Below are positions 9,728 through 29,005 of a DNA stretch of 40,195 nucleotides, in pieces. Position numbers and translations under genes: made by a program. How positions within the stretch are numbered: position 1 is the stretch's first letter; each line of letters starts with the position of its first letter. The stretch spans positions 1-40,195 of the IMG/VR virus record IMGVR_UViG_3300022752_000159; one strand, written 5' to 3'. Below the pieces are notes generated by a model, which was not told the origin of the DNA, did not search any database, and saw only the letters and a program-made list of their open reading frames with translations. Origin of the DNA: a virus.

Positions 9728-9739
9728 CTGGATCATACT

Positions 9740-12477: not shown

Positions 12478-13550
12478 TGGCCTTTATTGTTAAAGAAAAG
12501 ATTCTACTAGATTCTAACGGACTAAGGATACCTGCATCATTGCCTACCGCACGTCCTAGCGATCCACAGACAGGTATGGTTATTTTTAATACACAGACTA
12601 ATATCATGGAAATTTATGATCAAGGTCTTTGGAAAGATGCCACTCAAGATGTAGGTGGAAGTAGATTTCTATATAGACAAATTATTACTACAGGATATGT
12701 TGCAGGTGGTTATAAAGATTCTGTGCCCTGGAGAAATGTGAACAGAATGAACCATATAACGGATGTTATGACTAATCTAGGAGATTTGTTAGATATTGCT
12801 GCCAATTATACCTCAGGAGGATGTAGCAGAACAAAAGCATTTATGTGGGCATCTAGTGCCGCAGCCTTTGGATCAGAAACTGCTGTTACTGTAGGATTTA
12901 ACATGATTACAGAAACAGGACTAGGTACAAATTCAGTGTGGAATTTACAAGTAGCTCGAAATGACTGTGGTACAATTTTCAAGGAACATGAATACTGCTT
13001 TGTCACAGGAGGAGGTAGTTCAACCGTAGACATTTTTAACTTTACTTTAGAAACTATGAGAAATGGTTTAACAGCAGGACAGACAGGTGATGTTTCGTAT
13101 CAATACGGTGTAACAGCTTTCAGCGACGAAACCGTAGGATATTGGTGGGGAAGTACGGGACAAAAATTAACATTTGCAACAGAAACTACCTATACTGTGG
13201 CAACCGCAGGTGGTGTTAATGTTAATGGACAGCAAAAGGGAATATCCAGCAAATATAATAGAGGTTACTTTGGCAACGAAGGTACTTACAATGCAGGCTA
13301 TAATTTAAGAAGGTATGAGACAGCCGTAGATAATTACTATACTGTGGCAAAACCTATAGGCAATTGTGGGGAAGAAAATTTTGACATGGGTCAAAACTAT
13401 CAGTATATGATGGGAATGTATGATGGTTTACAAAATAATAGAGGTTGGAAATTTAGATACACCACAGATAGCGGTTTCGAACTAGGATCAGGAAGTGTAA
13501 GAACAGGTGTGCCTGGAGGAAGTTCTGGACATTGTTTCTGGAGAGGATAA
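12477..13550 (+). CDS. Virion surface protein, six-repeat propeller-like family, copy 3
   Basis: 357 residues, third tandem paralogue. The N-terminal docking module reads RPSDPQTGMVIFNTQT, then MEIYDQGLWK. The body repeats the same six units (VAGGYKDSVPWRNVNRM, FMWASSAA, CFVTGGGSSTVDIFNFTLET, YWWGSTGQKLTF, YNAGYNLRRYETA, MGMYDGLQNNRGWKF) and ends in VPGGSSGHCFWRG. The most divergent parts between copies are the loops between units, as expected where a propeller's exposed loops bind variable targets (inference). The gene starts on the overlapping TAATG of copy 2. Confidence 0.7.
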   Translation: MAFIVKEKILLDSNGLRIPASLPTARPSDPQTGMVIFNTQTNIMEIYDQGLWKDATQDVGGSRFLYRQIITTGYVAGGYKDSVPWRNVNRMNHITDVMTNLGDLLDIAANYTSGGCSRTKAFMWASSAAAFGSETAVTVGFNMITETGLGTNSVWNLQVARNDCGTIFKEHEYCFVTGGGSSTVDIFNFTLETMRNGLTAGQTGDVSYQYGVTAFSDETVGYWWGSTGQKLTFATETTYTVATAGGVNVNGQQKGISSKYNRGYFGNEGTYNAGYNLRRYETAVDNYYTVAKPIGNCGEENFDMGQNYQYMMGMYDGLQNNRGWKFRYTTDSGFELGSGSVRTGVPGGSSGHCFWRG

Positions 13551-13568
13551 GTAAGTACAGGAGGTTTT

Positions 13569-14324
13569 ATGAATACAGATAATCTTACTCAAGAACACTT
13601 AAAATTAATCGAAATGGCAGAAGATAGAAGTCTTATTATGCCAGAATTTAAAATTACGCACTTTGTAGGTAATGCACAGATTACACCCTATGCAAAATTA
13701 AGACAGTATCTTATAGAATTAAACAGTAGACAAAGTTCTGTAGAGTCTATGGAATATGAAGTTAGTAAATTAAAAATACAAATTGAACTAGAAAAAGAAA
13801 AAGCAGAAGAAACAGAAAGTAAAGCACAGCGTAAATTACACGAATTAGAAACTATGAAATTAGAAGCCATGCTTAAAAAAAGCGAACTTAGGCTTAGAGA
13901 TGCTACCAAAGAAAGAAATTTGTTTTTAAAGGTAATTGATGATTTTAATAAAACTCCAGAAGCATTTTTACCTGATGGTAGGAAAATTATTGATATAATA
14001 GATGATCCGGACATGGCAAATCAATTTGAAAGAGAACATTGGACTCTTAGACTAGCCAAACAGACTGCAATGGATATGATAGCCTATGGTAGAGCAGGAG
14101 TTGGAAATATGGATGCAGTCACAATGTTAGATTCAACACAGCAATTAGAAGTTATGAAATTAGCAGTAGATTTCTTTGTAAGAAATGAAATCAGACAGAA
14201 CGCATTATTAGGTCAAGTTAATAAAAATGTCTCTCTAGGGAAACCTGAAGAATCTGAGTTAGTTAAACAATTAATGTTCAAACAGGTATCAAACGAAAAT
14301 GTATCTACTATTCAAAACAGTTAG
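13569..14324 (+). CDS. Coiled-coil phage protein of unknown function
   Basis: 251 residues with a strong Shine-Dalgarno AGGAGG at 13559-13564, five bases before the ATG. Residues ~50-120 are rich in Lys, Glu and Leu in heptad-like spacing, so a long coiled coil is likely. Residues ~165-215 (LAKQTAMDMIAYGRAGVGNMD and following) form a helical C-terminal domain that resembles part of the 156-residue protein at 23086. No catalytic motif is visible. The position after the propeller genes and before a DUF4376-like protein suggests a tail-associated or assembly role, but this is inference. Confidence 0.6.
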   Translation: MNTDNLTQEHLKLIEMAEDRSLIMPEFKITHFVGNAQITPYAKLRQYLIELNSRQSSVESMEYEVSKLKIQIELEKEKAEETESKAQRKLHELETMKLEAMLKKSELRLRDATKERNLFLKVIDDFNKTPEAFLPDGRKIIDIIDDPDMANQFEREHWTLRLAKQTAMDMIAYGRAGVGNMDAVTMLDSTQQLEVMKLAVDFFVRNEIRQNALLGQVNKNVSLGKPEESELVKQLMFKQVSNENVSTIQNS

Positions 14325-15027
14325 CGAACCCGAAATGGGCCTTGTTAGAAGAATAGGCTCTTGGTTAAATTATGTAGTGGGTTACTTAGATGACAGTGTT
14401 AAAGATATTGTTATTACAGAACATCTAAATGCCACTGTTATACCTTCTCAAGAAGTTGCATATGCATGGAAATTTGCAGGTAACCATACAGGGTATGTAA
14501 GTGTGAGAGCAGGTACACTTAGCAATGAACAATTAGATATCATAAGCAGCACTGAGCCCACGGGTGAAAAAGCAAGATATTATCTAACAGACGAAGATAA
14601 ATCTAATGCTATCACTTTTATGAAACTGGCTTTAAGAAAAATGTTAGACGATGTATATGATAAAAGAGTATTAGAAGTCAAATTAAATGTAAGCGATCTA
14701 GAATATAAAACTTGGCCAATACAACTATCAGAAGCGCAAAATTATAAAAAAGATACAAATTATTCAACTCCTATGTTATCTGCCTTGGCATCAGTGAGAA
14801 ATATTACATTGATAGAAATGGTAGATAAAGTTATTAGTGCAAATATTGATTACACAGGTAAAATTGCTCAATTACTTGCTGCAAAACAAATTATTGAAAT
14901 AGAAATTAAAGACTGCCAAACAATTAGAGACCTTAATGTAATTGTTCATTCACGTTACGGATATAATATGCCTCCTACTCAGGCAGAGGAATTAGGGATA
15001 ACCTCGAGCTCAGTTTATAACTTATAA
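14299..15027 (+). CDS. DUF4376-like protein, possible tail-fibre assembly factor
   Basis: 242 residues; the ATG at 14299 lies 26 nt inside the previous gene, and an ATG at 14335 (MGLVRRIG) is an alternative start. The C-terminal half (about residues 140-210) has the DUF4376 pattern: WPIQLSEAQNYKKD, TPMLSALASVRNIT, then a helix ending in AQLLAAKQ. DUF4376 domains are known from phage proteins next to tail fibres, often linked to fibre assembly. The N-terminal half is a separate mixed alpha/beta region I do not recognise. Assignment to the family is by motif only. Confidence 0.6.
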   Translation: MYLLFKTVSEPEMGLVRRIGSWLNYVVGYLDDSVKDIVITEHLNATVIPSQEVAYAWKFAGNHTGYVSVRAGTLSNEQLDIISSTEPTGEKARYYLTDEDKSNAITFMKLALRKMLDDVYDKRVLEVKLNVSDLEYKTWPIQLSEAQNYKKDTNYSTPMLSALASVRNITLIEMVDKVISANIDYTGKIAQLLAAKQIIEIEIKDCQTIRDLNVIVHSRYGYNMPPTQAEELGITSSSVYNL

Positions 15028-15030
15028 ATT
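15023..15030 (+). promoter_or_regulatory. Candidate late promoter TATAAATT
   Basis: Seven of eight bases match the T4 late octamer. It overlaps the end of the previous gene and lies 24 nt before the ATG at 15054. No clear Shine-Dalgarno follows. It would serve the accessory island. Confidence 0.4.
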
Positions 15031-15053
15031 TCAATATGTGCTAACTATAGTGT

Positions 15054-16667
15054 ATGTTCAGCATACCTATCAATCCTAAATTATCCCAAGAAGAATTTCA
15101 AAAATTCTACAAATTTGTAGCAGAAAATAAAGATGTAATTTATGATCTATATTTTACAAGCAGAATGCCCCCATTTATTCAAGACGCAATGGGAGATGTA
15201 TTTGACATTTCGAATACAGGACCAATCGAAACGGCGCTTTTTATACAAGAATCTTTGGGTGTAAAGGTTTCTGCTACATTTAACAATACGCTCGTTCGAC
15301 CTAATCAAGAAAATTTAGATTTATTCATTCATAATTTTAAACAATTATACAATGCAGGAATAAGAAGTGCTACTATTCCTCATACCCATTGGCTGATGAC
15401 AGGACAAATTCAAAAAGAATTTCCAGACCTTTTTATAAAAAATACAATTTTATGGGACGTGAACAGAGCTAATGATGTGGCTAAGTTGGCAGAAGCAGGA
15501 TTCCATTATGTAAATTTAGATAGAGATTTAATGAGAGATAGGGATGAACTGGCTAAGTGTAAAAAGGTAGCTAAAAAATATAATATAAAATTAAGTTTAC
15601 TAGCGAACGAAGGTTGCCTAGGTGGCTGCTCGGTCATGAAAGAACATTTTCAATTTAATAATACGAGAGGTCCTGACGGCGCACAATACTTTAATGATCT
15701 TATCAGTAGAGTAAGTTGCCCAAAATGGGAATATGAAGATCCTAGTACTATGTTAAAAACTGCCAATTTCCCCCCATGGAGAGAAGATTGGATAGAATTG
15801 CTAGATTATGTCGATGTTATTAAGATGCACGGAAGAGAAAGCATTTCTCGATTGTTTGAAACTATTGATATTGTTGAACGTTTTAGAAATAAAAAAGAAA
15901 TACTATTTGATTCTTTTAATGAATATTTAGAAGAAACAAACCTAGAAGGTAAGCCAATTACAGCTTGGCGAAATAAAATAAAAAACTGCAAATTTGACTG
16001 CTGGGATTGTGACTACTGCGATAAGGTCTATGCAGCCAAAAGTGATATCCAGGCCCACCCTAAAACATTACTAGTTACCAAAGAATTAGTAGATAGTGTA
16101 AACGAAGATGTTAACTTTAATATAGAAGGCTTAACCAGTAACAGGGTTCAAAAGTTTCTAAATAGACTTGCGAAAAATAGCAATGTTTATTTAGAAATTG
16201 GAAGTGCATTGGGTGCGACTGCCTTACCAGTAGCTCAAACTAACATAGAAGTTCACTGTGTAGATAACTGGTCTTCAAATGTTCAACCAATGAATGATGA
16301 ATTTGAATTACCAGACAATACAAAAAAGATTTTTTTAGATAATCTAAAAGGTTATCAGGTTAATGTGCATGATTCTGATTTATTTAATGTAGATCTTTCT
16401 AAAATTAATAACGTAGATTTATTCTTTTACGACGGACCACACGATGTACAAACCACTGCAAAAGCTGTAAAATATTATAAAGATTGTTTTGCTGACACAG
16501 TTATAATGATTTTTGACGATGCAAATTGGCAAGGAGTTGTGCAAGGTGCAGACTTAGGCATTAGTTTAGCAAAATTAAATGTTATATATAGTAAAAAAAT
16601 GTTGAATAGTCCTGAAAACAAAAACATGTGGTGGAACGGACTTTACATTGTTGTTGCTCAAAAATAA
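15054..16667 (+). CDS. Fusion: U32-type Fe-S/TIM-barrel domain plus class I SAM methyltransferase
   Basis: 537 residues in two parts. Residues ~1-330 resemble the peptidase-U32 superfamily (UbiU/UbiV, TrhP, RlhA), which are Fe-S proteins that hydroxylate RNA or quinone precursors, or collagenase-like proteins. The diagnostic pieces are NEGCLGGCSVMKEHFQF (Cys188, Cys192), SCPKW (Cys222) and DVIKMHGRES, corresponding to the family's K-x-x-GR motif. A second cysteine group, Cys312/316/319/322, follows. Residues ~355-537 form a Rossmann methyltransferase of the Methyltransf_24 type: YLEIGSALGATA (SAM-binding motif I), CVDNWS, FFYDGPHD and IMIFDDANW. The substrate is unknown. The fusion suggests two-step modification of one substrate (inference). 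The stop overlaps the next ATG. Confidence 0.75.
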   Translation: MFSIPINPKLSQEEFQKFYKFVAENKDVIYDLYFTSRMPPFIQDAMGDVFDISNTGPIETALFIQESLGVKVSATFNNTLVRPNQENLDLFIHNFKQLYNAGIRSATIPHTHWLMTGQIQKEFPDLFIKNTILWDVNRANDVAKLAEAGFHYVNLDRDLMRDRDELAKCKKVAKKYNIKLSLLANEGCLGGCSVMKEHFQFNNTRGPDGAQYFNDLISRVSCPKWEYEDPSTMLKTANFPPWREDWIELLDYVDVIKMHGRESISRLFETIDIVERFRNKKEILFDSFNEYLEETNLEGKPITAWRNKIKNCKFDCWDCDYCDKVYAAKSDIQAHPKTLLVTKELVDSVNEDVNFNIEGLTSNRVQKFLNRLAKNSNVYLEIGSALGATALPVAQTNIEVHCVDNWSSNVQPMNDEFELPDNTKKIFLDNLKGYQVNVHDSDLFNVDLSKINNVDLFFYDGPHDVQTTAKAVKYYKDCFADTVIMIFDDANWQGVVQGADLGISLAKLNVIYSKKMLNSPENKNMWWNGLYIVVAQK

Positions 16668-17278
16668 TGATAAAACGTTTTCCTATCATAAGTGCAGATA
16701 TTTTCTATAAAAATGTAGGTACTGAAGAAAAGAGAAAAGATTTAATCCAACAGGCCTGGGATGAATTTCATAAAAATGAAAAAACTATTGCTTGGACAAA
16801 CAAAGGTTGTTGGAGAAGTACATTTAAGTATAAAAGTTTAGATTGGTTAATGGAGGAAATACGAATTATAGTAAATGAAGCTGGCAAATATTATCAAGAA
16901 ACTGATCCTATCTATACCAAGAAGTCGGCAATGTTTACAGGAAGCGAAATCAAATATTGGACAAACATTAATAGACCTCTCAGTAAAAATGCCATTCATG
17001 AACATAAACTTTATCATTACGTTGCAGTTTATTATCTTCAAGCAGAAAATACAGGTGATCTAACTTTTTATAACCCAATAAATTTAACAGAAGCATGTAA
17101 TCCAACTGCTCCCTTTGTAAGCACTATTTCAATAAGCCCCAAAGACGGCGATTTATTGGTTTGGCCGGCCTGGGTCCCTCATGAAGTAGAAATGAATATG
17201 AGCGATAAACATAGAATTAACATTGCTATGAACATTAGGTTTAATTCACCCATGCCCTATGACGATGAAAACTATTGA
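16667..17278 (+). CDS. 2OG-Fe(II) oxygenase-like protein
   Basis: 203 residues when started at the ATG overlapping the previous stop (TAATG), which is preferred over an upstream in-frame ATG inside that gene. The C-terminal half has the double-stranded beta-helix pattern of phage 2OG-Fe(II) oxygenases: HEHKLYHYVAVYYLQA (His111 and His113), GDLTFYNP, GDLLVWPAWVPHEVEMN (His172) and HRINIAMNIRF (Arg183, likely 2-oxoglutarate binding). Such proteins are frequent in cyanophages; most substrates are unknown. The gene sits between the U32-methyltransferase fusion and an unknown phage family with overlapping ends, so the three are probably one translational unit. Confidence 0.75.
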   Translation: MIKRFPIISADIFYKNVGTEEKRKDLIQQAWDEFHKNEKTIAWTNKGCWRSTFKYKSLDWLMEEIRIIVNEAGKYYQETDPIYTKKSAMFTGSEIKYWTNINRPLSKNAIHEHKLYHYVAVYYLQAENTGDLTFYNPINLTEACNPTAPFVSTISISPKDGDLLVWPAWVPHEVEMNMSDKHRINIAMNIRFNSPMPYDDENY

Positions 17279-17987
17279 ATTTTTCAGCGATGTATACGGT
17301 TTAGCCGATACTGTTCCAATTATTAAAACAAGTGATGCTTTACCTCGATGGGTATCACTTGCTAGAAATGATTTTAAACAGGCATCTAAAGTAAAAACTC
17401 ATATCGCAAGATGTCCTGGAATATTTGACTTATTTAAACAGGGATATCTTATTCCGGCATGGCACGATATTACGATTAGAAGTGATGGAGAAAGATTTGG
17501 TTGGGAAATTCCATCAGAAAATCTAATGAACCTTAGAGGTACAAATAGTATTGCTCAAGCTCATGATAAGAACACTATAGGAAAACATTTGCCTAGACCA
17601 CCATGGGCTAATCCTAATGTTTTAAAGATAAACACACCATGGCATGTAATTGCTCCTAAAGGTGTTAAATTATTAATGACTTCGGTTCCATATCCAGACA
17701 CTTTTGAAATTGAAGCATTAAATGGTATACTAGATCCTGCTGTAAGCACTGAAATAAATTTACAGTTAAATTTCAATATTTTACGAGGAGAACATTTGAT
17801 AAAAGCAGGAACACCACTGGCTATGATTATTCCTTTATCTGAAAATGAATTTAAATTAGTTGTAAGAGATAAAAATTCATATGACGAAATGTGGAGTGTT
17901 AAGAGAAAATTTGTTAATTCTATGTCATATGTGTTAAATAGGCAACGAATTAAACAACTTTATGAAAAACATTGGAGAAATAAATGA
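17259..17987 (+). CDS. Conserved-looking phage protein of unknown function
   Basis: 242 residues. The ATG at 17259 overlaps the oxygenase gene by 20 nt; an in-frame ATG at 17265 (MKTIEFFS) is equally possible. Landmarks are ARCPGIFDLFKQGYLIPAWHDI near residue 50, a PRPPWANPNVLKINTPWHV stretch, and 'LRGEHLIKAGTPLAMIIPL' near residue 180, which reads like a beta-barrel. I associate this arrangement with a hypothetical family found beside oxygenase genes in marine phages but cannot name it safely. No catalytic residues are evident. The stop overlaps the next gene's start (ATGA). Confidence 0.6.
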   Translation: MTMKTIEFFSDVYGLADTVPIIKTSDALPRWVSLARNDFKQASKVKTHIARCPGIFDLFKQGYLIPAWHDITIRSDGERFGWEIPSENLMNLRGTNSIAQAHDKNTIGKHLPRPPWANPNVLKINTPWHVIAPKGVKLLMTSVPYPDTFEIEALNGILDPAVSTEINLQLNFNILRGEHLIKAGTPLAMIIPLSENEFKLVVRDKNSYDEMWSVKRKFVNSMSYVLNRQRIKQLYEKHWRNK

Positions 17988-19045
17988 TCGATACAGATTT
18001 TTTACTAAAACTAATAAACGGACTGCAATATCTTTGGTTAATATTTTTTATTATGATAGTAGCAGGGATAGCAAAAGAAAAAAACTTATTCATGCCCGTC
18101 TATTCCTATATAAAAAATAGCTTTCATAGTAATAGAGTTGTGTTATTTCTTATTAGCGCATTTAGTGGGGTATTACCTATTGAAGGTAGAGTAACTGTAA
18201 GTGCTGGTGTATTAGATACTATTACGCATAAAAACTGTGAACACAATCATGGGAGAGAAAAAATGGGCATAGTAGATTATCTATCTACTCATCATTATTA
18301 TCTTTGGAGCCCGTTAGAAAAAACCGTGATTATTCCTATGGCCACTTTTAGTTTAACCTATACAGCCTGGTTAGGACTGATATGGCCGCTGCTGTTTATT
18401 ACTGCTGCATTTATTTTTTATTATATTTTTTATAAAGTTAAAGAAGAAGATATTAATATAGAATATAGTGAGTTTAAAATTAGTAGTGTTATTAGAAACG
18501 TATTGCCATTCTTTTTGGCAATTACGGTATATATATACACGGGAGGTGACAAACATGTATTTGTCATCTTTGGAGGTCTTGCACTCTATTATGTATTCTT
18601 GACGCAGACATGGAATTATAAAAAACTATTAAGTTACATAAATTGGGAAGTGTTATTAACTGTAGCCGTAGTGATTATTTTAGGAAATTACTTTAAAAGT
18701 CAAGAAGCTTATATTAATTCATATATTAGAGAACTAGGTGTAGATATAACGACCTTGTTTGGTATATCTTTTATTTCTATTGTTGGCTTAATGGCAAGTT
18801 TTTTCATGGGGTCAAGCGGAAAATTCATTGCTCTCGCAGTTTTGATGTCAACTGTATTTGGCAAAGAGTATTTCCTATGGTTTTTTGTGGTGGATTATGT
18901 AGGATATCTTTTGAGTCCTACTCATAAATGTGTAATGGTAGGAAATAAATACTTTGGAACTCCTATGTCTACATACTACTCTGCTCTAGGAGTATGGAGT
19001 ATACTAATGCTTACTACAGCAGGATTAATTACTTTTTACAACTAA
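17984..19045 (+). CDS. DUF401-like polytopic membrane protein
   Basis: 353 residues with about ten hydrophobic segments, including residues ~15-33, 51-66, 115-150, 172-190, 192-207, 222-240, 255-275, 280-297, 299-316 and 333-351. FSGVLPIEGR near residue 60 and LLSPTHKCVMVGNKYF near residue 315 fit the two most conserved parts of DUF401, a family of integral membrane proteins related to ion/organic-anion transporters. A charged loop holds THKNCEHNHGREK. The protein would sit in the host inner membrane. Its start overlaps the upstream stop (ATGA), so it is probably co-expressed with the oxygenase cassette. Transport substrate is unknown. A membrane transporter-like gene between tail genes is atypical for a T4-like phage. 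Confidence 0.7.
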   Translation: MIDTDFLLKLINGLQYLWLIFFIMIVAGIAKEKNLFMPVYSYIKNSFHSNRVVLFLISAFSGVLPIEGRVTVSAGVLDTITHKNCEHNHGREKMGIVDYLSTHHYYLWSPLEKTVIIPMATFSLTYTAWLGLIWPLLFITAAFIFYYIFYKVKEEDINIEYSEFKISSVIRNVLPFFLAITVYIYTGGDKHVFVIFGGLALYYVFLTQTWNYKKLLSYINWEVLLTVAVVIILGNYFKSQEAYINSYIRELGVDITTLFGISFISIVGLMASFFMGSSGKFIALAVLMSTVFGKEYFLWFFVVDYVGYLLSPTHKCVMVGNKYFGTPMSTYYSALGVWSILMLTTAGLITFYN

Positions 19046-19061
19046 AAACAAATAAAAATCT

Positions 19062-19069
19062 AATAAATA
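19062..19069 (+). promoter_or_regulatory. Candidate late promoter AATAAATA
   Basis: Seven of eight bases match the T4 late octamer. The predicted start near 19075 leaves a 14-nt leader containing TTGGA before the ATG at 19089. Confidence 0.55.
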
Positions 19070-19088
19070 CCAATATTGGAATAAAAAT

Positions 19089-20147
19089 ATGGCATTTTTT
19101 ATTAGAGAAATAGAAAGTTTATCAACTTCAACTTTACAAGTTCCTGTAGGTGTGACCGCGAATAGATCACCTGTGGCTGCGATAGGTAATATGAGGTTCA
19201 ATACGACCACAAATTACCTTGAATTTTTCGCAGGTGGACAATGGAATAATATTTGGAGTCCTTTTAATCCTATTCAGGCTACAGGAGGAACACTTTCTGC
19301 CACTACTATAGGTTCTCGGCAGTATAATATTCATACATTTACATCAACAGCAGGCGCAAATTTTCAAGTGACAAATCTTGGAACAGGTGGACAAGAAATA
19401 GAAGTATATATGTGGGGGGGAGGCGGTTCAGGAGGAAGCCAGGGCGGCAGCGGCCAGCCTGGTGGTACAGGTGGTGGTGGTGGCTTTGCCTATGCTAAAT
19501 TCTCTCCAGCTGTTACCACCTATACTGTTTATGCAGGTGGAGGTGGACAGGTTGGAGTATTAGGTTGTAGTTGCGGTGGTGCTGGTGGTGCTGGTGGTGC
19601 CAGCGGCTATGCTGCAGGTGGACAAGGCAGTCCAGCAGGTAGTGCATGTTGTTCTGGATCAGGTGGTGGTGGTGGCGCAGGCAGTTTTCTTACAAATGGT
19701 GCAACTCTTATAATGGCCGCCGGAGGGGGTGGGGGTGGGGGCGGAACTGAAGCAGGTGGAAACGCAGGATTAGGTGGAGGTGGCGGTCAAGCCGGATCCA
19801 ACGGGATAGGTGGTGCATTTGGTGGGGCTGCAGGAAATCAAGCAACATCTGTAGGAGGTTCACAGGGATGTGGAGGTGATCAATCTTGTGGAGGTGGTGG
19901 TGGCAGCGGATTTAGAGGAGGTGGGCCAGGACAACCACCCGGACAGGACGCCTATGGTGCAGGCGGTGGGGGCGGTGGATCTCATACTATACCGGTAGGG
20001 GTATCAAATTATACTGTTAATGGTAATTATTCAACCCCAGGAAACTCGACAGAAACTTTACGAAGCACCTATGCAGGTGGAGGTGGGAGTCAGGGTGCAG
20101 GCACACAAGGTGTGGTAATTATAATATATCCAATTACAGCAGCATAA
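19089..20147 (+). CDS. Glycine-rich tail adhesin
   Basis: 352 residues. Residues ~20-60 carry the docking module (NRSPVAAIGNMRFNTTT, FFAGGQW). Residues ~80-115 form a beta domain (YNIHTFTSTAGANFQVTN, then VYMWGGGGSGG). Residues ~115-330 are dominated by glycine, with runs of up to 8 Gly and several Cys pairs (CSCGG, ACCSG, GCGGDQSCGGG). This composition matches glycine-rich phage/bacterial surface domains and the polyglycine-II helix bundles known in the gp38-type adhesins of T-even-like phages, where loops between helices bind the host receptor. The protein ends in VVIIIYPITAA. The role in receptor binding is inferred from composition and position. Confidence 0.7.
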   Translation: MAFFIREIESLSTSTLQVPVGVTANRSPVAAIGNMRFNTTTNYLEFFAGGQWNNIWSPFNPIQATGGTLSATTIGSRQYNIHTFTSTAGANFQVTNLGTGGQEIEVYMWGGGGSGGSQGGSGQPGGTGGGGGFAYAKFSPAVTTYTVYAGGGGQVGVLGCSCGGAGGAGGASGYAAGGQGSPAGSACCSGSGGGGGAGSFLTNGATLIMAAGGGGGGGGTEAGGNAGLGGGGGQAGSNGIGGAFGGAAGNQATSVGGSQGCGGDQSCGGGGGSGFRGGGPGQPPGQDAYGAGGGGGGSHTIPVGVSNYTVNGNYSTPGNSTETLRSTYAGGGGSQGAGTQGVVIIIYPITAA

Positions 20148-20156
20148 AGGTGAAAA

Positions 20157-20540
20157 ATGATAGAAAACTCTATTAAAATTACTTTTGATTTAGAACAAAG
20201 ACAATACGCTATTGAACAATCAGAAATCTTTGATAAAAAAATTACTCTAATGTTTAGTTTTAAATCTAGTGATGAAATTGTTAAATTTAACAATCTAAGT
20301 TTTGGAATTTTAGTACAAAACGAAAATAAAGATATAATCTTTATAAAGTCATGGCCTCTTCCTAATACCAAATATATATCCACTGATCAAGAATTTCTTG
20401 AAATATTTTCGTTAAATTTAGAAACAGGCAAAAGTTATAATTTACTGCTATGGAATGAAGAAACTAATATTAGAACAGATAAAAATATTTCTATCACTAT
20501 ACCAGAAATTGAAGAAATGCCAGACTACGAGGTAGAATAA
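20157..20540 (+). CDS. Small protein of unknown function after the adhesin
   Basis: 127 residues, preceded by AAAGGTG as a ribosome-binding site. It is acidic at the C-terminus (PEIEEMPDYEVE) and otherwise reads as alternating beta-strands (IKITFDLEQRQYAIEQ, KITLMFSFKSS), so an immunoglobulin-like fold is possible. No known motif was found. Immediately downstream of the adhesin, it could be a helper for adhesin assembly, but nothing in the sequence proves this. Its stop overlaps the next ATG (TAATG). Confidence 0.55.
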   Translation: MIENSIKITFDLEQRQYAIEQSEIFDKKITLMFSFKSSDEIVKFNNLSFGILVQNENKDIIFIKSWPLPNTKYISTDQEFLEIFSLNLETGKSYNLLLWNEETNIRTDKNISITIPEIEEMPDYEVE

Positions 20541-20716
20541 TGGAAAAGAAATGGGTCATATTAGAAGTAGCACAGGCACGATTTGATATTTGTAAGACCT
20601 GTGATAGGTTCCTTCAGGAAGATGCAAAATGCAGTGAAACAGGTAGTTTCCTGAAGGACAAAGTAAAATCAACAAATTCAGTGTGTCCTTTAGGAAAATG
20701 GGGTATTGCAAAATAG
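20540..20716 (+). CDS. Small four-cysteine (zinc-ribbon-like) protein, copy 1
   Basis: 58 residues, starting on the overlapping TAATG. Cysteines are arranged as CKTC near residue 18, then single Cys in KCSE and VCPLGKW, a pattern that could bind one zinc ion. It shares its start (WVILEVAQARFDICK) and end (CPLGKWG) with the following 57-residue protein, so the two are tandem paralogues. Small proteins of this type occur among tail genes of marine T4-like phages; their role is unknown. Confidence 0.65.
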   Translation: MEKKWVILEVAQARFDICKTCDRFLQEDAKCSETGSFLKDKVKSTNSVCPLGKWGIAK

Positions 20717-20723
20717 GTGTTTT

Positions 20724-20897
20724 ATGAAATTATGGGTCGTGAAAGAAGTAGCACAGAAAAGATATGATGAGTGTAAGAAATGTGATTTGTTTAATCACAC
20801 ATTGGGAACTTGCAAAGAATGTGGTTGTGTTATGAAATTGAAAGTAAAATTAGCAAATACATCATGTCCTTTATCTAAATGGGGACCTCATCAATAA
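20724..20897 (+). CDS. Small four-or-more-cysteine (zinc-ribbon-like) protein, copy 2
   Basis: 57 residues from the ATG at 20724. An in-frame upstream TTG at 20706 is rejected because it lies within copy 1 and lacks similarity to it. Cysteines occur as CKKC, CKECGC and SCPLSKWG. The third position is CxxCxC here but a single Cys in copy 1, so the metal site has diverged. The N-terminus (WVVKEVAQKRYDECKKC) closely matches copy 1. The stop codon lies inside a perfect inverted repeat preceding the bilin reductase. Confidence 0.7.
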   Translation: MKLWVVKEVAQKRYDECKKCDLFNHTLGTCKECGCVMKLKVKLANTSCPLSKWGPHQ

Positions 20898-20905
20898 TAT
20901 TGATG
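20889..20905 (+). promoter_or_regulatory. Perfect 8-bp inverted repeat upstream of the bilin reductase
   Basis: The 17 bases form CATCAATA, one central A, and TATTGATG, an exact dyad. It spans the stop of the preceding gene and ends 8 nt before the ATG at 20914, with no T-run. It could be a protein-binding operator or a small hairpin affecting translation. Confidence 0.4.
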
Positions 20906-20913
20906 CTTAGATT

Positions 20914-21600
20914 ATGAGCACAATATGGGACTGTCTAATTGAAATTGAACAATTTTTAGAACAAAAATTTAATACAACAGGTACAGAAATATTAGAACCT
21001 AGCATGGATAGGTTCAATAAACCTAATTGGGTTAACAAAGTTTGGACAAGTGAATCTTATCGTAGAGCACACATCGATGTGGTAGACGCAAGAACCACAA
21101 AAAATCTATGGATGATGCACTGCTGCATTTTCCCACATACACATAATAACGGACCTATCTTTGGGTTTGATGTCATTGCAGGAAAAAATAAAATAACAGG
21201 ATGCTTTCACGATTTTAGTCCAACTTTAGATGTCGATCATGATATGATAAAATGGTTTGAACAACTGGCAGTAGATTATAGTTGGAAAAAAACAAGACAA
21301 CTACCGCATTGGGCAAAGTCTATTTTTAGTCCTCACATGATAGCAGCAGGAAATGTTAATGAAGATATTGAATTAAACCAAATAATCCAGATTATTACAT
21401 CATCTACAGATTATTATTTAACTCACATAAAAGATTACAGTATGACTGACGCAAACGCCATAGTTAAACAAAATTTTTATTGCACTATGCAAAAGCAAAA
21501 TCCTCATACTCCTAAGGTCATGGCAAGTTTAGGATTAGATAAAGAAGACGTAGATGTGTTTATTCAACAATGCTTGTTCCCAGAAGTTCTTGAAAACTAA
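20914..21600 (+). CDS. pcyX: Ferredoxin-dependent bilin reductase, PcyA/PcyX type
   Basis: 228 residues, full length for the family. These enzymes reduce biliverdin IX-alpha to phycobilins using ferredoxin. Diagnostic parts are WMMHCCIFP (His69, aligning with catalytic His88 of Synechocystis PcyA), FGFDVIAGKNKITGCFHDFSP (Asp86, aligning with catalytic Asp105) and a PcyA-like C-terminal signature at residues ~186-200 (YC..Q..N..T). The His at position 69 argues against the PebS group of cyanophages, which I recall as having Asn there. PcyX, a phage enzyme related to PcyA that forms phycoerythrobilin, is my preferred reading; PcyA itself is the alternative. No heme oxygenase gene is present in this window. 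No good Shine-Dalgarno precedes the ATG. Confidence 0.8.
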   Translation: MSTIWDCLIEIEQFLEQKFNTTGTEILEPSMDRFNKPNWVNKVWTSESYRRAHIDVVDARTTKNLWMMHCCIFPHTHNNGPIFGFDVIAGKNKITGCFHDFSPTLDVDHDMIKWFEQLAVDYSWKKTRQLPHWAKSIFSPHMIAAGNVNEDIELNQIIQIITSSTDYYLTHIKDYSMTDANAIVKQNFYCTMQKQNPHTPKVMASLGLDKEDVDVFIQQCLFPEVLEN

Positions 21601-21614
21601 TCTAATTAGTATTA

Positions 21615-21622
21615 GATAAATA
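21615..21622 (+). promoter_or_regulatory. Candidate late promoter GATAAATA
   Basis: Seven of eight bases match the T4 late octamer. The predicted start near 21628 gives a 12-nt leader holding AGGAG before the TTG start at 21640. Confidence 0.6.
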
Positions 21623-21639
21623 TCTGAAGGAGAACTGAC

Positions 21640-22827
21640 TTGCCTTTAACGAGATTACGACCGACAGGTGTAGAAAATACCTCTACATTTACTCTTTTTT
21701 CTGCATTATTTACAGCCTCTATAAACGCGGTTAACACTGTAACAGGTGCTGTCTCTATTAAAGGTGGATTAGGAGTCGGGCAAGATATACATTTTGGGGG
21801 AAATTTATATCGAAACGGCGTATTATTCACGGGAGGCGGTGGATCTACTGCCAGTTTCGCCACCACCGCTAGTTATGCGATCACAGCCACAAATCTAGAA
21901 GGAGGTGATTACGGACAGATTCCTGTTCAATCTTCAACAAGTACTACAGTTTTTATATACACAGGATCACAAAATACGGTCCTTGTTTCAAACTGGCCTG
22001 CAGGTTTACCTAGTTGGTCTAACCAATTAATTTTAGAATCAGATAATACTAGTTTTAGCACTCAAACTGGTGCCTTGGTTGTTAATGGTGGTGTAGGTAT
22101 AGGACAAGATTTATATGTTGGCGGTATTATCTATGCTAAGCAATTGACCATTGATATAACAACAATTACTACTACCTTAATCCAAACCGACGATGTAATT
22201 AAAACTACAAATACTACCAATGCTACATCAACACAGACAGGTGCCCTACAGATATCAGGCGGCGCTGGTATTGGTCAGAATTTATACGTCGGTGGTGGCG
22301 TTAACATAACAGGCATAACCACAATTACAAATGCTACAGAAGCAACATCTACAACAACCGGTGCTCTAATTGTTACAGGCGGATTGGGCATAGGTAAAAA
22401 TATTGTATCTAGAGGATCACTTTGGGTAGGCGGTGGCACAATTGCTACAGGTGTAGCAGGAGAAATTCGTGCCAGTAATGAAATTACAGCCTATTATGGA
22501 TCAGATAAAAATCTCAAAGAAAATATTGTGCCCTTAAGCGATGCCATAGAAAAAATAAATTCAATAGGAGGCTACGAGTTTGATTGGAAACAATCTTATA
22601 TTGATGCACGTGGTGGTGAAGATGGTTATTATGTAAGAAAACACGATATAGGAGTTATAGCACAAGAAATAGAAAATGTTCTCCCAGAAATTGTAGGAAC
22701 TAGAGCAGATGGTTTTAAGGCAGTCAAGTATGAAAAAATAGTTCCTTTGCTTATTGAAGCAATCAAAGAACAACAAAAAATTATAAACCAGATTTTAGAT
22801 GTTCTGAGAAAAAACAACATTAAATAA
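21640..22827 (+). CDS. Tail fibre with repeat modules and C-terminal S74 chaperone domain
   Basis: 395 residues, using a TTG start supported by AGGAG six bases upstream and by a late promoter motif; no nearby in-frame ATG fits. The N-terminal 260 residues contain fibre modules related to the giant protein at the window start (VTGAVSIKGGLGVGQD, TNATSTQTGALQISGG, AGIGQNLYVGGGV). The S74 domain starts at SDKNLK (Ser288, Lys293), followed by IGVIAQEIENVLPEIV and YEKIVPLLIEAIKEQQ. As known for this family, the domain should assist trimer folding and then cleave itself just before Ser288, releasing about 108 residues. Likely a mature trimeric fibre involved in host attachment. Confidence 0.85.
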   Translation: MPLTRLRPTGVENTSTFTLFSALFTASINAVNTVTGAVSIKGGLGVGQDIHFGGNLYRNGVLFTGGGGSTASFATTASYAITATNLEGGDYGQIPVQSSTSTTVFIYTGSQNTVLVSNWPAGLPSWSNQLILESDNTSFSTQTGALVVNGGVGIGQDLYVGGIIYAKQLTIDITTITTTLIQTDDVIKTTNTTNATSTQTGALQISGGAGIGQNLYVGGGVNITGITTITNATEATSTTTGALIVTGGLGIGKNIVSRGSLWVGGGTIATGVAGEIRASNEITAYYGSDKNLKENIVPLSDAIEKINSIGGYEFDWKQSYIDARGGEDGYYVRKHDIGVIAQEIENVLPEIVGTRADGFKAVKYEKIVPLLIEAIKEQQKIINQILDVLRKNNIK

Positions 22828-23556: not shown

Positions 23557-24209
23557 AAAAGAAATCTGTATTTTCAGCAAGTAAATGGTCAAATAAAGCA
23601 ACTAAGTTAGCAGTTCTAATTCCATGTAGAGATCATATATTTTCTCATCATGCATTAAGTGTAATTGAACTTGTAAAATTCAACACACTCAATAACCTAG
23701 ATACTGAAGTTATCATGGATGCTAGTACAATCCTTTTAACTCAACGTCAAAATCTTGCTCAATCAGCATTGGATATTGGAGCAGATTATATGTTATGGTT
23801 AGATAGTGACATTGTTTGCCCGTCCTCAACTGCCATGCGATTATTGAATCATAATGAAGATATCGTATGTGGAAATTATGTAAGAAGGCAAGTTCCTCAT
23901 AAAGGTGTTGCCTATGAAACTATAGGTGATTGGCAAAATCCCTTACCCATGGATGTTTACAAAGACCTAGTTCCAGTAGAAGGAATTGGCATGGGCTGTA
24001 TGTTAATGAAAACTTCAATTTTAAGGAAGATTGAAAAACCCTGGTTTGAATTTCAGTGGTCTCCGGAGAGTAAAGACTTTCTTGGAGAAGATATGTATCT
24101 TTGCCAAAAAATGGCCGCAGCGGGATTCACCGTAAAAGTTGATACACTTTTAAGCCAAGAACTTTATCATATGGGAACCTACGGTTTCAGCCCTAAAGAT
24201 CTAAAGTAA
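23553..24209 (+). CDS. GT-A type glycosyltransferase-like protein
   Basis: 218 residues. LAVLIPCRDH near residue 20 is the first strand of a nucleotide-sugar-binding fold. MLWLDSDIVCP (residues 80-90) carries the DSD version of the DxD metal-binding motif. NEDIVCGNYVRRQ and IGMGCMLMKTS follow, and FLGEDMYLCQKMAAAGF supplies the acidic 'GED' pair typical of GT2-like enzymes. Such genes are frequent in cyanophages. The acceptor could be a virion protein or host surface glycan; neither is shown by sequence. The last 9 bases overlap the convergent Nudix gene on the opposite strand. Confidence 0.75.
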   Translation: MKKKSVFSASKWSNKATKLAVLIPCRDHIFSHHALSVIELVKFNTLNNLDTEVIMDASTILLTQRQNLAQSALDIGADYMLWLDSDIVCPSSTAMRLLNHNEDIVCGNYVRRQVPHKGVAYETIGDWQNPLPMDVYKDLVPVEGIGMGCMLMKTSILRKIEKPWFEFQWSPESKDFLGEDMYLCQKMAAAGFTVKVDTLLSQELYHMGTYGFSPKDLK

Positions 24210-24629
24210 ATCTAGAATCAATTTAAGTTTAATTTTATTAATTTTATTATTAAAACTATTTCTCACACCTCTGTGTAGAGGTTTTGGCCAATACTCATAA
24301 TTACACCAAGAATAACCTGAATGTTCTCCATTTAGTTTAGGTATGAATTCACTAGGTGTAATTAGCACGTAGGTATTGTACTGAAAACTCTGATCACTAT
24401 TCGTAAATAATTCTAATGGTACTATTTTATCTATTAGGGCAGTACCTAATTCCTCTTCAATTTCTCGTTTCAGTGTATCTACGAGGGTATGATCAATTGA
24501 TTCTTTTTTACCACCAACCAGTCCCCAAGTACCTGCGGTCTTTTTAGATGTTCTTTGTAAAAACAAAAATCGTTTTGTATCTCTAGATAAGAAAAGTCCA
24601 CCACTACAAATTAAAGTATCATGCGCCAT
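24201..24629 (-). CDS. Nudix hydrolase
   Basis: 142 residues. GTWGLVGGKKES, then REIEEELG, forms the Nudix box, with the catalytic REI.EE core intact. The spacing between the Gly and the REI core seems one residue different from the strict consensus, and Asp/His stand near the usual first Glu. Family members hydrolyse nucleoside diphosphates linked to another group. The fold supports GLFLSRDTKRFLFLQR as the opening strands. The 5' end overlaps the gp15 gene by 19 nt and the 3' end overlaps the glycosyltransferase tail-to-tail. Substrate unknown; nucleotide clean-up or NAD/ADP-ribose turnover are family possibilities. Confidence 0.8.
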   Translation of the reverse strand: MAHDTLICSGGLFLSRDTKRFLFLQRTSKKTAGTWGLVGGKKESIDHTLVDTLKREIEEELGTALIDKIVPLELFTNSDQSFQYNTYVLITPSEFIPKLNGEHSGYSWCNYEYWPKPLHRGVRNSFNNKINKIKLKLILDLL

Positions 24630-26011
24630 AACTGTTTATCATACACACCTTCATAGGTCTTGGTCCAACTATTATTGACCCATTTATATTGTGTTCCTGT
24701 ATATGAGTTAGTTATGTATACTACATCTGTTTCTGTTTGTGAATTGAAAATAGAGTACCAAAGTTGACCATTCCACTCTATAATATCATTAGCATGAGCT
24801 CGAAAATCACTACCGTCTAAATTCTTCCATGCAACTGGGCCGTCGTATCCAAATGTTCCGTATAATGGATTAACATTTATATCCTCTAATATTATATAAC
24901 GAGTTCCTACAGCAGGATGAGGAATAGGATTAAAAGTTTCTGGATTTATAACAGCATCTACAGTACCTCTTCCTTGTATAATAGTGTTATTTGGTATGGT
25001 ATCTGGATCAATATTGAGATTCATAATATTATCATCAACAGGATTAATTGAAATTGTGGCTACAACTTCATTACCGTCAGGTTGTGCAAATCTTAGTTGA
25101 CTTAGGCCTGCTCTAAACTTTCCCGGATATAAATCTAATAACCTGTACCAAGAGAAACTATTTCCAGGCTCAGTAACATTTATGTCGTCACCTTGACCAT
25201 TTGAATGTACTAGTCTTGCAGTATTATTTAGAACCAGTAAATCATAATTACCAGGTGTAACTGTTATTACAGTGTCTGGATTTATGTCTCCAAATATTTC
25301 AGCGGCAGTCTCTTTGTCGTAGGTAGAATTTATTAGGCCCTGGGTTACTGCATATGCATTGCTTATAATCTTTGTTACAATGCCTAATTTCTTTACCTTG
25401 GCAGGCGGAGTGATCCAAATAGGAGCAGTAAATTCCATCGTAAGAATATCAATATCTTCATTTAGACCCTGTGGGATCGTTCTAGAAGAATATGTTTGCC
25501 TTTCTAAGGTCACTGTAGACAAACTGGTCCAGTCAATATAGTTGTCTGTGGTCTGTATCTCAAAACTGGGATTGAAAAATACCACAATTTGTTCCCAAAT
25601 TTGCAATTTCATTTCAGTATTTGTTGACCAAATATCTGCAGAAAATGTAATAGTCCAAGGACTAGGCATAATTCGTTCTACAGTAAAATTACTACCTTGT
25701 ACATTTAAATACTCTTGATTATCCTCATCAAATGCACGCTCTCTTATGTGCACCTTACTGATAAAAGTTGGATCCTGTAATCTTGCTCTATCAAATTGTA
25801 GATCTTTAATGTAACAGGCTATAAAAGGAGCACTTGGAATAGTATTTTCAGAATTCTTTTTGATTATTTGAGCAACTTGTCTAGTCATATCACCGTAGCG
25901 CACTGGAACCTGCACGAGATTACCCTTGCCATCTTTATAGGCAAAGTTGCTCAAGATATTCATAAATTGTGTAAGGTAACGCCTTACCTGCCCGTCGTAA
26001 AAAAAATCCAT
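24611..26011 (-). CDS. 15: Tail sheath stabiliser/completion protein (gp15-like)
   Basis: 466 residues. The first ~210 residues follow T4 gp15: FFYDGQVRRYLTQFMNILSN at the start, VPVRYGDMTRQ, RIMPSPWTITFSADIW, EQIVVFFNPSF, and WITPPAK, where T4 has a comparable Tyr-Pro-Pro. T4 gp15 is 272 residues, so about 200 residues are extra at the C-terminus. These contain beta-rich sequence and short motifs such as IEWNGQLWYS and YKWVNNSWTKTYEG that resemble the docking modules of the fibres. gp15 forms the hexamer that ends the tail tube and sheath and joins the neck. Its start overlaps the gp14 stop by one base (TAATG). Confidence 0.85.
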   Translation of the reverse strand: MDFFYDGQVRRYLTQFMNILSNFAYKDGKGNLVQVPVRYGDMTRQVAQIIKKNSENTIPSAPFIACYIKDLQFDRARLQDPTFISKVHIRERAFDEDNQEYLNVQGSNFTVERIMPSPWTITFSADIWSTNTEMKLQIWEQIVVFFNPSFEIQTTDNYIDWTSLSTVTLERQTYSSRTIPQGLNEDIDILTMEFTAPIWITPPAKVKKLGIVTKIISNAYAVTQGLINSTYDKETAAEIFGDINPDTVITVTPGNYDLLVLNNTARLVHSNGQGDDINVTEPGNSFSWYRLLDLYPGKFRAGLSQLRFAQPDGNEVVATISINPVDDNIMNLNIDPDTIPNNTIIQGRGTVDAVINPETFNPIPHPAVGTRYIILEDINVNPLYGTFGYDGPVAWKNLDGSDFRAHANDIIEWNGQLWYSIFNSQTETDVVYITNSYTGTQYKWVNNSWTKTYEGVYDKQLWRMIL

Positions 26012-27204
26012 TAGATATCAGCCCTTGGTTTTAGTGCCTTGCTTAAGGCCTGTTTTTCTATAACAGTTTCACCTGCAATTACATTTGTAGAAGTATTATT
26101 AACAAAACTGGCCTTTAATTTTCTTCTAATTAAATCTGGATTATTTGTTTGTGTATCTCCCAATGTACTCTGTGTCATTCTAACATCATCCTCATATTTG
26201 ACCCAATGTCTACCATCATATCTAAATAGTCTATTAGGAAGATAATCTGTCCTAAGAAAAAATTGCCCATCTACTGGACCTGGCGGAAATGTTATTCCAA
26301 ATCCATAAGGAGAACCATTTGGTGGTACACCATCACCAGTTAGATATCCCACATAATAATTATTTTCGGGTGTTTCTAAAATATAACTTGCATCGGGCGG
26401 TAAACTATTATCACTAATATTTGTTTCAGTATCAGAAGCATCTGCTGTGTTGACTTTTTCTTCACTATCTAGAGGGATCACATAGAAATGATCTGTTTTG
26501 TACCCACTTTTATCTGCATCAATTTGAGCTTGTGCAATCAATTGTTGATTAATCTCAAGATTTTTCTGATAAGTTGATAAAAGATCTCTTAGGGAACTTC
26601 CATCTCCCGCACCACTATCACCGTCTAATATCTCCTTAAATTCTTGGGTATCTACTAACGGTTGACACTTTGCTCTAACTAAATGGGGATACCATGTTTG
26701 ACTGTAACCTGTTGCTGGCCTTGACACTTCACTAATCACATAGAATCGTTTAAGAGCCACAAGAGCATCATCTAGTGCATATTCATCTTTTTGATGCGGC
26801 AATTCAATAACATCTCCCGCCATAATTTTTCTTCCAATAGCATCAAAACTTGTACGCAAATGGAAAGTAATTATTATATTATCATTATTTAGGAAGAGAC
26901 CGAATTGACTCAGATTAAAATCAATATCTTGTAATGTATAAATTCCACGAATTATATAGATATCTGGATCATAATGCCTATCCCTATTTTCCATAAACAA
27001 CAGATCTTGAATACCAAGTTCAGGTATACCATTTGTTGTAATAGGTTGTGCAGGAGTAGCATCTTCCTCTGAAGGGCTAACAGGACCTAGATATTTGTGT
27101 AGATAAACATCAGTACCACCAACTTGGAACTGTTCATTTATAACACGATCTAAAAAACGAAAATCGTTGCCCTTTTCCGGACGATATAGTGATAAGCGTG
27201 GCAT
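26011..27204 (-). CDS. 14: Neck protein (gp14-like)
   Basis: 397 residues. The core matches T4 gp14: RFLDRVINEQFQVGGTDVYLHK, the FNLSQFGLFLNND region (T4 has SKFG at the equivalent place), FDAIGRKIMAGDVIELPHQ (T4 has EGDLIYFP) and RFYVISEVSRP. T4 gp14 is 256 residues. The extra C-terminal part includes DGQFFLRTDYLPNRLFRYDGRHWV, which resembles the fibre docking module. gp14 with gp13 forms the neck that joins head and tail. It is divergent from gp13, which is unusual because in T4 the genes run in the same direction. A minus-strand late octamer lies just upstream. Confidence 0.85.
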   Translation of the reverse strand: MPRLSLYRPEKGNDFRFLDRVINEQFQVGGTDVYLHKYLGPVSPSEEDATPAQPITTNGIPELGIQDLLFMENRDRHYDPDIYIIRGIYTLQDIDFNLSQFGLFLNNDNIIITFHLRTSFDAIGRKIMAGDVIELPHQKDEYALDDALVALKRFYVISEVSRPATGYSQTWYPHLVRAKCQPLVDTQEFKEILDGDSGAGDGSSLRDLLSTYQKNLEINQQLIAQAQIDADKSGYKTDHFYVIPLDSEEKVNTADASDTETNISDNSLPPDASYILETPENNYYVGYLTGDGVPPNGSPYGFGITFPPGPVDGQFFLRTDYLPNRLFRYDGRHWVKYEDDVRMTQSTLGDTQTNNPDLIRRKLKASFVNNTSTNVIAGETVIEKQALSKALKPRADI

Positions 27205-27211
27205 AGTCCTT

Positions 27212-27219
27212 TATTTATT
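27212..27219 (-). promoter_or_regulatory. Candidate late promoter on the minus strand (AATAAATA)
   Basis: Read on the - strand, 27219 to 27212 gives AATAAATA, 7 of 8 bases of the T4 late octamer. It is 7 bases upstream of the gp14 ATG. With T4 spacing the transcript would begin 2 nt before the ATG. Confidence 0.5.
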
Positions 27220-27227
27220 GCTAAATA
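27220..27227 (+). promoter_or_regulatory. Candidate late promoter for gp13 (GCTAAATA)
   Basis: Six of eight bases match the late octamer, directly abutting the minus-strand motif. With T4 spacing the +1 would be 27233, the A of an ATG that starts gp13. This supports 27233 over the in-frame ATG at 27227. Confidence 0.35.
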
Positions 27228-27232
27228 TGGTT

Positions 27233-27991
27233 ATGACTGAGAACGAAAACGAACGACAAAAGGTTATAGATTATTGTAAGCTAATGCTAGGTGATGGCAT
27301 GGTAGACGTTGAATTAGACCCAGCACATTATAATCTTGCCATTGATAGATCTCTTAATTATTTTAGAACTAGAAGTAGTAATGCAGTAGAAGAAAGTTAT
27401 GCCTTTTTAACCATAGAAGTTGATAGAAATGATCACATTCTGCCTCCGGAAGTCATGAACATAAGGCAAATCTTCCGTAGATCTATAGGTTCTAGGTCTG
27501 GAGGAGGTCAAGGGGGTACTTTATTTGAACCATTTAATCTTGCCTATTCTAATACCTATCTTCTTACAGCAACAAATATGGGTGGATTGGCTACCTATTA
27601 TGCGTTTGCAAGTTATCAAAAACAAGTAGGTAAAATGTTCGGTAGTGAAATTAACTTCACTTTTAACAAAACTACTAAAAAATTAACTTTAATGCAACGC
27701 CCAAGAAGTGAAGAGGAAGTCTTGTTATGGGTTTATAATTATAGACCAGATTTTAATCTACTTCAAGACCCTTATGCCAATCAATGGCTTAAAGATTATA
27801 GTCTAGCGGTGTGTAAAATTATGATAGGTGAAGCAAGAGAAAAATTTAATCAAATTGCCAGTCCACAAGGCGGTACATCTCTTAACGGCACAGCACTTAA
27901 AGGAGAAGGTAAAGCAGATCTAGAACGTCTAGAGAACGACCTTATAACATACAAAGACGGCGGCACCCCACTTACTTTTGTAATTGGCTAA
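27233..27991 (+). CDS. 13: Neck protein (gp13-like)
   Basis: 252 residues from the ATG at 27233; another in-frame ATG at 27227 adds two residues. An earlier open frame running back to 27167 lies in the divergent gp14 gene and is not used. gp13 signatures are CKLMLGDGMVDVELDPAHYNLAIDRSLNYFR, ILPPEVMNIRQIFRRS, WVYNYRP, WLKDYSLAVCKIMIGEAREKF and the GTSLNGTALKGEGKADLERLE end, corresponding to 'LNG..L...G' in T4 gp13. The protein forms a neck ring between portal and tail. It is separated from gp14 by strand but adjacent to it. Confidence 0.85.
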   Translation: MTENENERQKVIDYCKLMLGDGMVDVELDPAHYNLAIDRSLNYFRTRSSNAVEESYAFLTIEVDRNDHILPPEVMNIRQIFRRSIGSRSGGGQGGTLFEPFNLAYSNTYLLTATNMGGLATYYAFASYQKQVGKMFGSEINFTFNKTTKKLTLMQRPRSEEEVLLWVYNYRPDFNLLQDPYANQWLKDYSLAVCKIMIGEAREKFNQIASPQGGTSLNGTALKGEGKADLERLENDLITYKDGGTPLTFVIG

Positions 27992-28047
27992 TTAAAAATT
28001 GACAACGTAATACAAATGCAATAAATTATAGTATCGCGGAGAGTACT

Positions 28048-28713
28048 ATGATTATAGGATTTGTTGGCTTCATTGGTTGCGGTAAAGACACAGCCGCAGA
28101 CTATCTAGTAAACTATTACGGATTTAGGCGAGACAGTTTCGCTAATACACTCAAAGATGCAGTAGCCGCTGTATTTGGTTGGGATAGAACCTTGTTAGAA
28201 GGGCGTACTTCTGAAGCAAGAGAATGGCGAGAACAGATAGATCAATGGTGGGCCGATAGATTAGACATTCCTTATCTTACACCTCGCTGGGTTTTACAGT
28301 ATTGGGGTACTGAAGTTCTCAGAAACAACTTTCATGACGACATTTGGATTGCCAGTGTAGAAAATAAATTAATGAAAACCAAAGATAATGTGGTTATCAG
28401 TGACGTTAGATTTCCCAATGAAATTAAGGCCATACATGATTCAAACGGCCTTGTAATAAGAATCAAGCGCGGACCCGATCCTGAATGGTTTCAAGATGCA
28501 GTTAACATGAATGCAGGTCCTACAAACATGACCTGGGCGATTAGCAGGCAAAAAATGCAAGAATTAGAAATTCACTCTAGCGAAACAAGTTGGATTGGAT
28601 CGCCAACAGACTTTGAAGTTAACAATGACCAAAATTTAAATACTCTTTATTCACAACTTGATTTCATTGTTAAAAATCAGGGGTCAGATCACCTTGTCGC
28701 CAAGGTAGCCTAA
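28048..28713 (+). CDS. 1: Deoxynucleoside monophosphate kinase (gp1-like)
   Basis: 221 residues. GFVGFIGCGKDTAADYL at the N-terminus is a P-loop, matching T4 gene 1 dNMP kinase, which phosphorylates dGMP, dTMP and hydroxymethyl-dCMP for phage DNA synthesis. Further family parts are SFANTLKDAVAAVFGWDR, REWREQIDQWW, PRWVLQYWGTEVLRNN and VVISDVRFPNEIKAI. Start at 28048 is supported by GGAGAG six bases upstream. It lies alone in a tail/neck gene region, and its 3' end overlaps a convergent gene by 44 nt. Possible early expression; no convincing sigma-70-like promoter was found. Confidence 0.85.
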   Translation: MIIGFVGFIGCGKDTAADYLVNYYGFRRDSFANTLKDAVAAVFGWDRTLLEGRTSEAREWREQIDQWWADRLDIPYLTPRWVLQYWGTEVLRNNFHDDIWIASVENKLMKTKDNVVISDVRFPNEIKAIHDSNGLVIRIKRGPDPEWFQDAVNMNAGPTNMTWAISRQKMQELEIHSSETSWIGSPTDFEVNNDQNLNTLYSQLDFIVKNQGSDHLVAKVA

Positions 28714-29005
28714 GTTTATGTAAAATGCGTTGACAATTAGCACAAACCGTTTTTAGATTAGACCATTTGACATTAGTAGGTTGTCCATCAACATAGAAAA
28801 CATTAAATTGCTCTGTATACTTAGAATTAAATCCACATCTATCGCAAGATGTTTTCTTTTTATACCCAGCCTTAGCCCACTGAGGACTACCATCGGATCT
28901 TTTCTTACTGCAATGATCACATTTTGTCCTGTAAAATGTTTTGCCTTGTTTTATATAATTAATAGCCACCGGTCGTTGACTACAAACTCTACATAAGTCT
29001 CTCAT
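28670..29005 (-). CDS. HNH-type zinc-binding protein, probable endonuclease
   Basis: 111 residues from the ATG at 29005, preceded by AAAGGG; a GTG at 29044 would add 13 residues (MLNNGKREPKRAY) and is the alternative. Cysteine pairs occur as CRVC, CDHC, CDRC and CANC. Middle motifs are YKKKTSCDRCGFNSKY, FNVFYVDGQPTN and NLKTVCANCQRI, which match HNH-like proteins common in marine T4-like phages (the 'YHVDG..N....NLKTVC.NC' region). The classical catalytic His is replaced: the sequence reads FYVDG rather than YHVDG, so activity may be lost. Probable stand-alone HNH relative; mobility is not shown. Confidence 0.65.
   Translation of the reverse strand: MRDLCRVCSQRPVAINYIKQGKTFYRTKCDHCSKKRSDGSPQWAKAGYKKKTSCDRCGFNSKYTEQFNVFYVDGQPTNVKWSNLKTVCANCQRILHKLRLPWRQGDLTPDF

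Follow-up and report, generated by a model that had tools for sequence, protein, structure and literature searches.

The window, as we call the whole 40,195-nt stretch of viral DNA that was analysed, carries on its plus strand a gene for a bilin reductase whose unusual point is that it stands as a lone copy among tail genes. The gene and its surroundings comprise the following features (positions in the window).

5047-21639, plus strand: lineage-variable block including pcyX, with fibre-like repeats, delimited by comparison with contig G020
15054-16667: methyltransferase in the variable block
16628-17278: 2OG-Fe(II) oxygenase in the variable block
17984-19045: DUF401 membrane protein in the variable block
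20540-20716, plus strand: small Cys-rich protein of 58 aa upstream of pcyX, resembling the product of the next ORF
20724-20897, plus strand: small Cys-rich zinc-ribbon-like protein of 57 aa (DUF6171 just under the cut-off; PHROG 13558)
20914-21600, plus strand: pcyX, ferredoxin-dependent bilin reductase of 228 aa with an ATG start, assigned from Pfam, PHROG and PDB matches and from the tree
21076-21078, 21118-21120 and 21169-21171, plus strand: catalytic codons of pcyX for Asp55, His69 and Asp86, respectively
21640-22827, plus strand: tail fibre with an S74 chaperone domain (Pfam), from which the gene order onward is common with the pcyX-less G020
24201-40195: block of nudix, gp15-like, neck, sheath and terminase genes, in an order common to jumbo contigs of 191-400 kb

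The pcyX frame is uninterrupted (228 codons and a stop), and its product matches the Pfam family Fe_bilin_red (PF05996) at 7e-18, over the curated cut-off, and PHROG 7278 at 1e-25. The best match by sequence among solved structures is the metagenomic phage phycoerythrobilin (PEB) synthase PcyX_EBK42635 (PDB 5OWG; E 5e-67, residues 4-228, i.e., full-length homology), followed by PcyA at 4e-11, which bears out the bilin reductase proposed here in the preliminary description. The AlphaFold model (pLDDT 91) retrieved 5OWG first in a fold search of the PDB (E 2e-15, TM 0.93 by target length), and hence both the domain and the fold of ferredoxin-dependent bilin reductases are present. Compared with the relative L007, pcyX differs at 64, 47 and 121 sites in codon positions 1, 2 and 3; this pattern is as expected under purifying selection, and since third positions dominate, the open frame is not a chance one. 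Moreover, only three deviations were found in conserved columns. The gene is thus a real PcyX, an ordinary enzyme added to a known family.

Clade, catalytic residues and predicted product

To place the protein, a tree of 88 reductases was built, including cyanobacterial, cyanophage and alphaproteobacterial PcyA, PebA, PebB, and the PebS of P-SSM2 taken by accession (a PebA query found no PebS in the phage set); HY2 was left out. In this phylogeny, which covers the families proposed beforehand except HY2, the window protein falls inside the PcyX clade, with support of 95/98, 92/78 and 98/84 at the surrounding forks, next to 5OWG and to the PcyX of Pelagibacter phage Mosig EXVC030M, which is 48% identical to it. 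The tree, the fold and the sequence therefore agree with the earlier assignment to the PcyA/PcyX lineage rather than to PebS, and specify PcyX. An identity as PebS was rejected, as the protein lies outside the PebA/PebB/PebS branch, and so was an identity as PcyA, as Asp55 replaces Glu76 and the protein lies outside the three PcyA clades. The PebS of cyanophage P-SSM2 resembles PcyX by function, being a single-enzyme PEB synthase, but it belongs to a separate branch of bilin reductases and to a phage of a cyanobacterial host.

Within the clade, the nearest relatives in both trees are L007 and L072. In the PcyX-only tree, the clade of the window protein with these two had support of 54/98, and neither the grouping of the four lone copies as one clade nor a pairing of the window protein with L075 was rejected (AU 0.42 and 0.49), so that a sister relation to L007 and L072 is only weakly suggested.

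The residue numbering of Asp55, His69 and Asp86 is identical to that of PcyX_EBK42635. His69 and Asp86, named in the preliminary description as catalytic, do occupy those positions, and both are conserved in all 14 sequences of an alignment that takes in cyanophage PcyA. The PcyA-like C-terminal signature also invoked there proved not to be diagnostic: the position of PcyA Asp220 is Lys in cyanophage PcyA and Pro197 in the window protein, and does not separate the families. The informative residue is Asp55, which occupies the place of PcyA Glu76, was found in 103/103 distinct PcyX of our survey, and has been described as a catalytic residue specific to PcyX; a phage enzyme that lacks it is reported to make phycocyanobilin (PCB) (PMC11480375). 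That enzyme, vPcyA of the peat-bog phage CB_2 (Nat Commun 2024), comes from freshwater and shares the PcyA/PcyX lineage with the window protein, in which, by contrast, Asp55 is present. From biliverdin, a product of heme breakdown, the virus-specific PcyX forms the pink pigment PEB; it does so in a cyanobacterial expression host as well, where its activity was below that of PebS or PebA-PebB (PMC13197396). Because Asp55 is present and has been tied to PEB formation in the literature, PEB is the likely product of the window enzyme, as judged from this one residue and homology.

Phage lineage and the usual hemO-pcyX cassette

The terminase of the window has 54% identity to those of the Pseudomonas jumbo phages PA5oct and MIJ3, the next-nearest being those of Phosso, GAP32 and Atu_ph07, and the block between positions 24201 and 38132 is syntenic with five IMG/VR contigs of 191-400 kb. 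The window probably represents a small part of the genome of a jumbo phage from a PA5oct-like lineage within the T4 superfamily. The preliminary description of a T4-like phage tail region thus holds at the level of the superfamily, but not for a typical T4-like cyanophage, as the neck-sheath-terminase block matches jumbo phages. As the nearest cultured kin infect Pseudomonadota (Pseudomonas, rhizobia and enterobacteria, all without phycobilisomes), a host with phycobilisomes seems unlikely, and a proteobacterium is the probable host. No tRNA was found in the 40,195-nt window, and a promoter scan gave nothing above background level. A scan of genome contigs gave no host clue: it returned alphaproteobacterial PcyA, three PcyX in MAG contigs that are probably phage, and one match in a contig of Nonlabens xiamenensis (L256), whose reductase is nearly identical to the PcyA of cyanophage P-TIM40 and suggests phage DNA in that assembly.

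The immediate neighbourhood is as first described, with the gene between zinc-ribbon proteins and an S74 fibre. The ORF at 20724-20897 ends 16 bases before the ATG of pcyX, at the place where relatives have the heme oxygenase gene hemO. The close relative G020 (terminase 90%) matches the window gene for gene over the interval that begins with the S74 fibre and ends with the terminase, but it has no pcyX, and the block of about 5.05-21.64 kb is missing or replaced between its fibre and S74 genes; therefore, the pcyX of the window lies in a variable block by fibre genes. Three successive related ORFs of about 360 aa each at positions 10270-13550 are probably tandem-duplicated fibre or tail proteins.

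A search of the window for heme oxygenase (PF01126) gave no match, even with a threshold of E<=1, confirming what had been read from the sequence. We then scanned IMG/VR, where 501 stretches were confirmed as encoding relatives, the counts for pcyX being based on 103 distinct genes. The family proved to be common. In 98/103, hemO lies directly upstream of pcyX, and in 2/103 about 1.5 kb upstream with one or two genes between; the remaining 3/103 are lone copies, namely L007, L072 and L075. These stretches, together with a published freshwater phage with hemO and a bilin reductase (PMC11480375), render the view of PcyX as known mainly from marine viral metagenomes out of date. Characterised PcyX come from two-gene hemO cassettes of pelagiphage-like origin, whereas the window copy is lone, belongs to a jumbo phage and sits on a long branch. 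In Mosig, the hemO-pcyX pair adjoins the neck/gp15/terminase module, as pcyX does in the window and in contig G097; unlike in the window, its hemO overlaps pcyX, while its terminase is 32% identical to ours and its genome measures 141 kb.

The window is a 40-kb fragment in which pcyX is not adjacent to hemO. Distances of 88-270 kb separate pcyX, with hemO beside it, from the terminase in the five jumbo contigs; at such spacing, the cassette would fall outside a 40-kb fragment that surrounds the terminase. The missing hemO thus carries little weight as to its presence elsewhere in the genome. The 43 records closest by terminase, fragments of at most 112 kb each, contain neither a bilin reductase nor a heme oxygenase.

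Several other arrangements were seen in the survey. An alaS-like gene lies directly upstream of an Asp55 pcyX (motif RRAHIDSVD) on a short contig without heme oxygenase (L203:2594-4446), L204-L211 have a pcyX of the same type, and alaS is directly upstream of pcyX also in G097. By eye, two desaturase-like proteins (L274:4477-5999) and a flavin-dependent halogenase-like protein (L367:4503-6050) are encoded between hemO and pcyX. Pseudopilin-like and PEP-CTERM-like ORFs occur near the lone pcyX of L075 (6001-9429, in a 230-kb viral record), the former ORF having no Pfam match. In L432 (G134:22000-38000), a 3.8-kb stretch occurs in two inverted copies of 76% identity with pcyX in each, either a duplication or a chimera.

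Proposed function, rival readings and phages with two reductases

The reading we favour, and hold to be likely, is that of a functional PcyX of a jumbo phage that converts biliverdin to PEB, with hemO probably elsewhere in the genome and the lone position derived. The enzyme is predicted to reduce biliverdin IXalpha to 15,16-dihydrobiliverdin and then to PEB in two ferredoxin-driven two-electron steps, in which Asp55, His69 and Asp86 would be the residues used. A search of 15 records yielded no phage ferredoxin, so the electron donor is likely host ferredoxin. Nearly all relatives have a heme oxygenase of their own, and here too a phage-encoded one, located in another part of the genome, would be the most likely source of biliverdin; pcyX would have moved out of the customary hemO-pcyX cassette or arisen as a copy of the gene there.

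A refinement compatible with this explanation is that the window pcyX is a second reductase beside hemO and a Glu55-type enzyme, the two making different bilins (PEB and PCB) or acting sequentially; we regard this as a serious possibility, somewhat short of an even chance. The contigs of the two nearest relatives (L007 and L072), namely G001 and G002, each hold both types: about 25 kb from the lone tail-region pcyX lies a second cassette, in the order dnaK-hsp20-clpS-hemO-reductase, whose reductase has Glu at the position of Asp55 (L092:16634-17302 in G002). In addition, L192 (contig G088) has hemO, then a PcyX (58% to the window), then a Glu55-type reductase in tandem, and a fold search with the Glu55-type enzyme finds PcyA first. 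However, a second reductase would lie beyond the view of the window, the sister relation to L007 and L072 lacks firm support, and in most of the long jumbo contigs there is just one reductase. The Glu55 type also occurs in further contigs, where a lone pcyX does not usually accompany it in the record. Tentatively, and with less confidence, some jumbo phages may combine an Asp55 PcyX with a hemO-paired Glu55-type enzyme so as to make both PEB and PCB or to split the reduction, the window gene being one half of such a pair; this would place two-reductase phages in what may be non-cyanobacterial hosts.

A stand-alone PcyX, working on biliverdin from a host enzyme that serves, e.g., bacteriophytochrome or iron uptake, in a phage without heme oxygenase, appears unlikely to us. 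A hemO-free state is possible: PF01126 is absent from the window, from the record of one lone copy (G003, 230 kb, holding L075) and likewise G004 (71 kb), and from the alaS-pcyX contigs G097 and G098 (22-33 kb), in which pcyX is placed as in the window. Yet hemO stands directly or shortly upstream of nearly all distinct pcyX, the two nearest relatives carry it elsewhere, and the hemO-free records may be fragments. Less probable still, and in our judgement improbable, is that the tail-region copy is a relic of a duplication, decaying under relaxed constraint and with little activity. The lone and atypical copies do have long end branches (0.58 for the window, against about 0.1, 0.51 for L075 and 0.40 for the tandem copy of L192), but the frame is full-length, the catalytic residues are all kept, and both the few deviations in conserved columns and the third-position excess speak against decay.

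No paper joining "bilin reductase" and "jumbo phage" was found in the literature searched, relative to which two things are new: the presence of PcyX in jumbo phages, and the existence of phages with bilin reductases of two kinds. An enzyme of pigment synthesis, known chiefly from cassettes of pelagiphage-like type, is now tied to jumbo phages whose nearest cultured kin infect hosts without phycobilisomes. If two reductases do lead to different bilins, the pigment itself, and not just heme removal, was likely selected. The two-reductase phages, one of them with the tandem behind hemO, are the new and testable part.

The jumbo-like contigs also hold csgF and csgG beside the hemO-reductase cassette (L192:6793-9036 and L092:18885-19899, by Pfam CsgF and CsgG; L367:6767-8053, by sequence resemblance only). 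Curli genes have been published for pelagimyophages, in a paper in which bilin genes are unmentioned (PMC7029224). Finally, phage hemO is preceded, immediately or at a short distance, by a conserved (dnaK-)hsp20-clpS chaperone-protease order in L091 (11925-15410) and in L175-L195.
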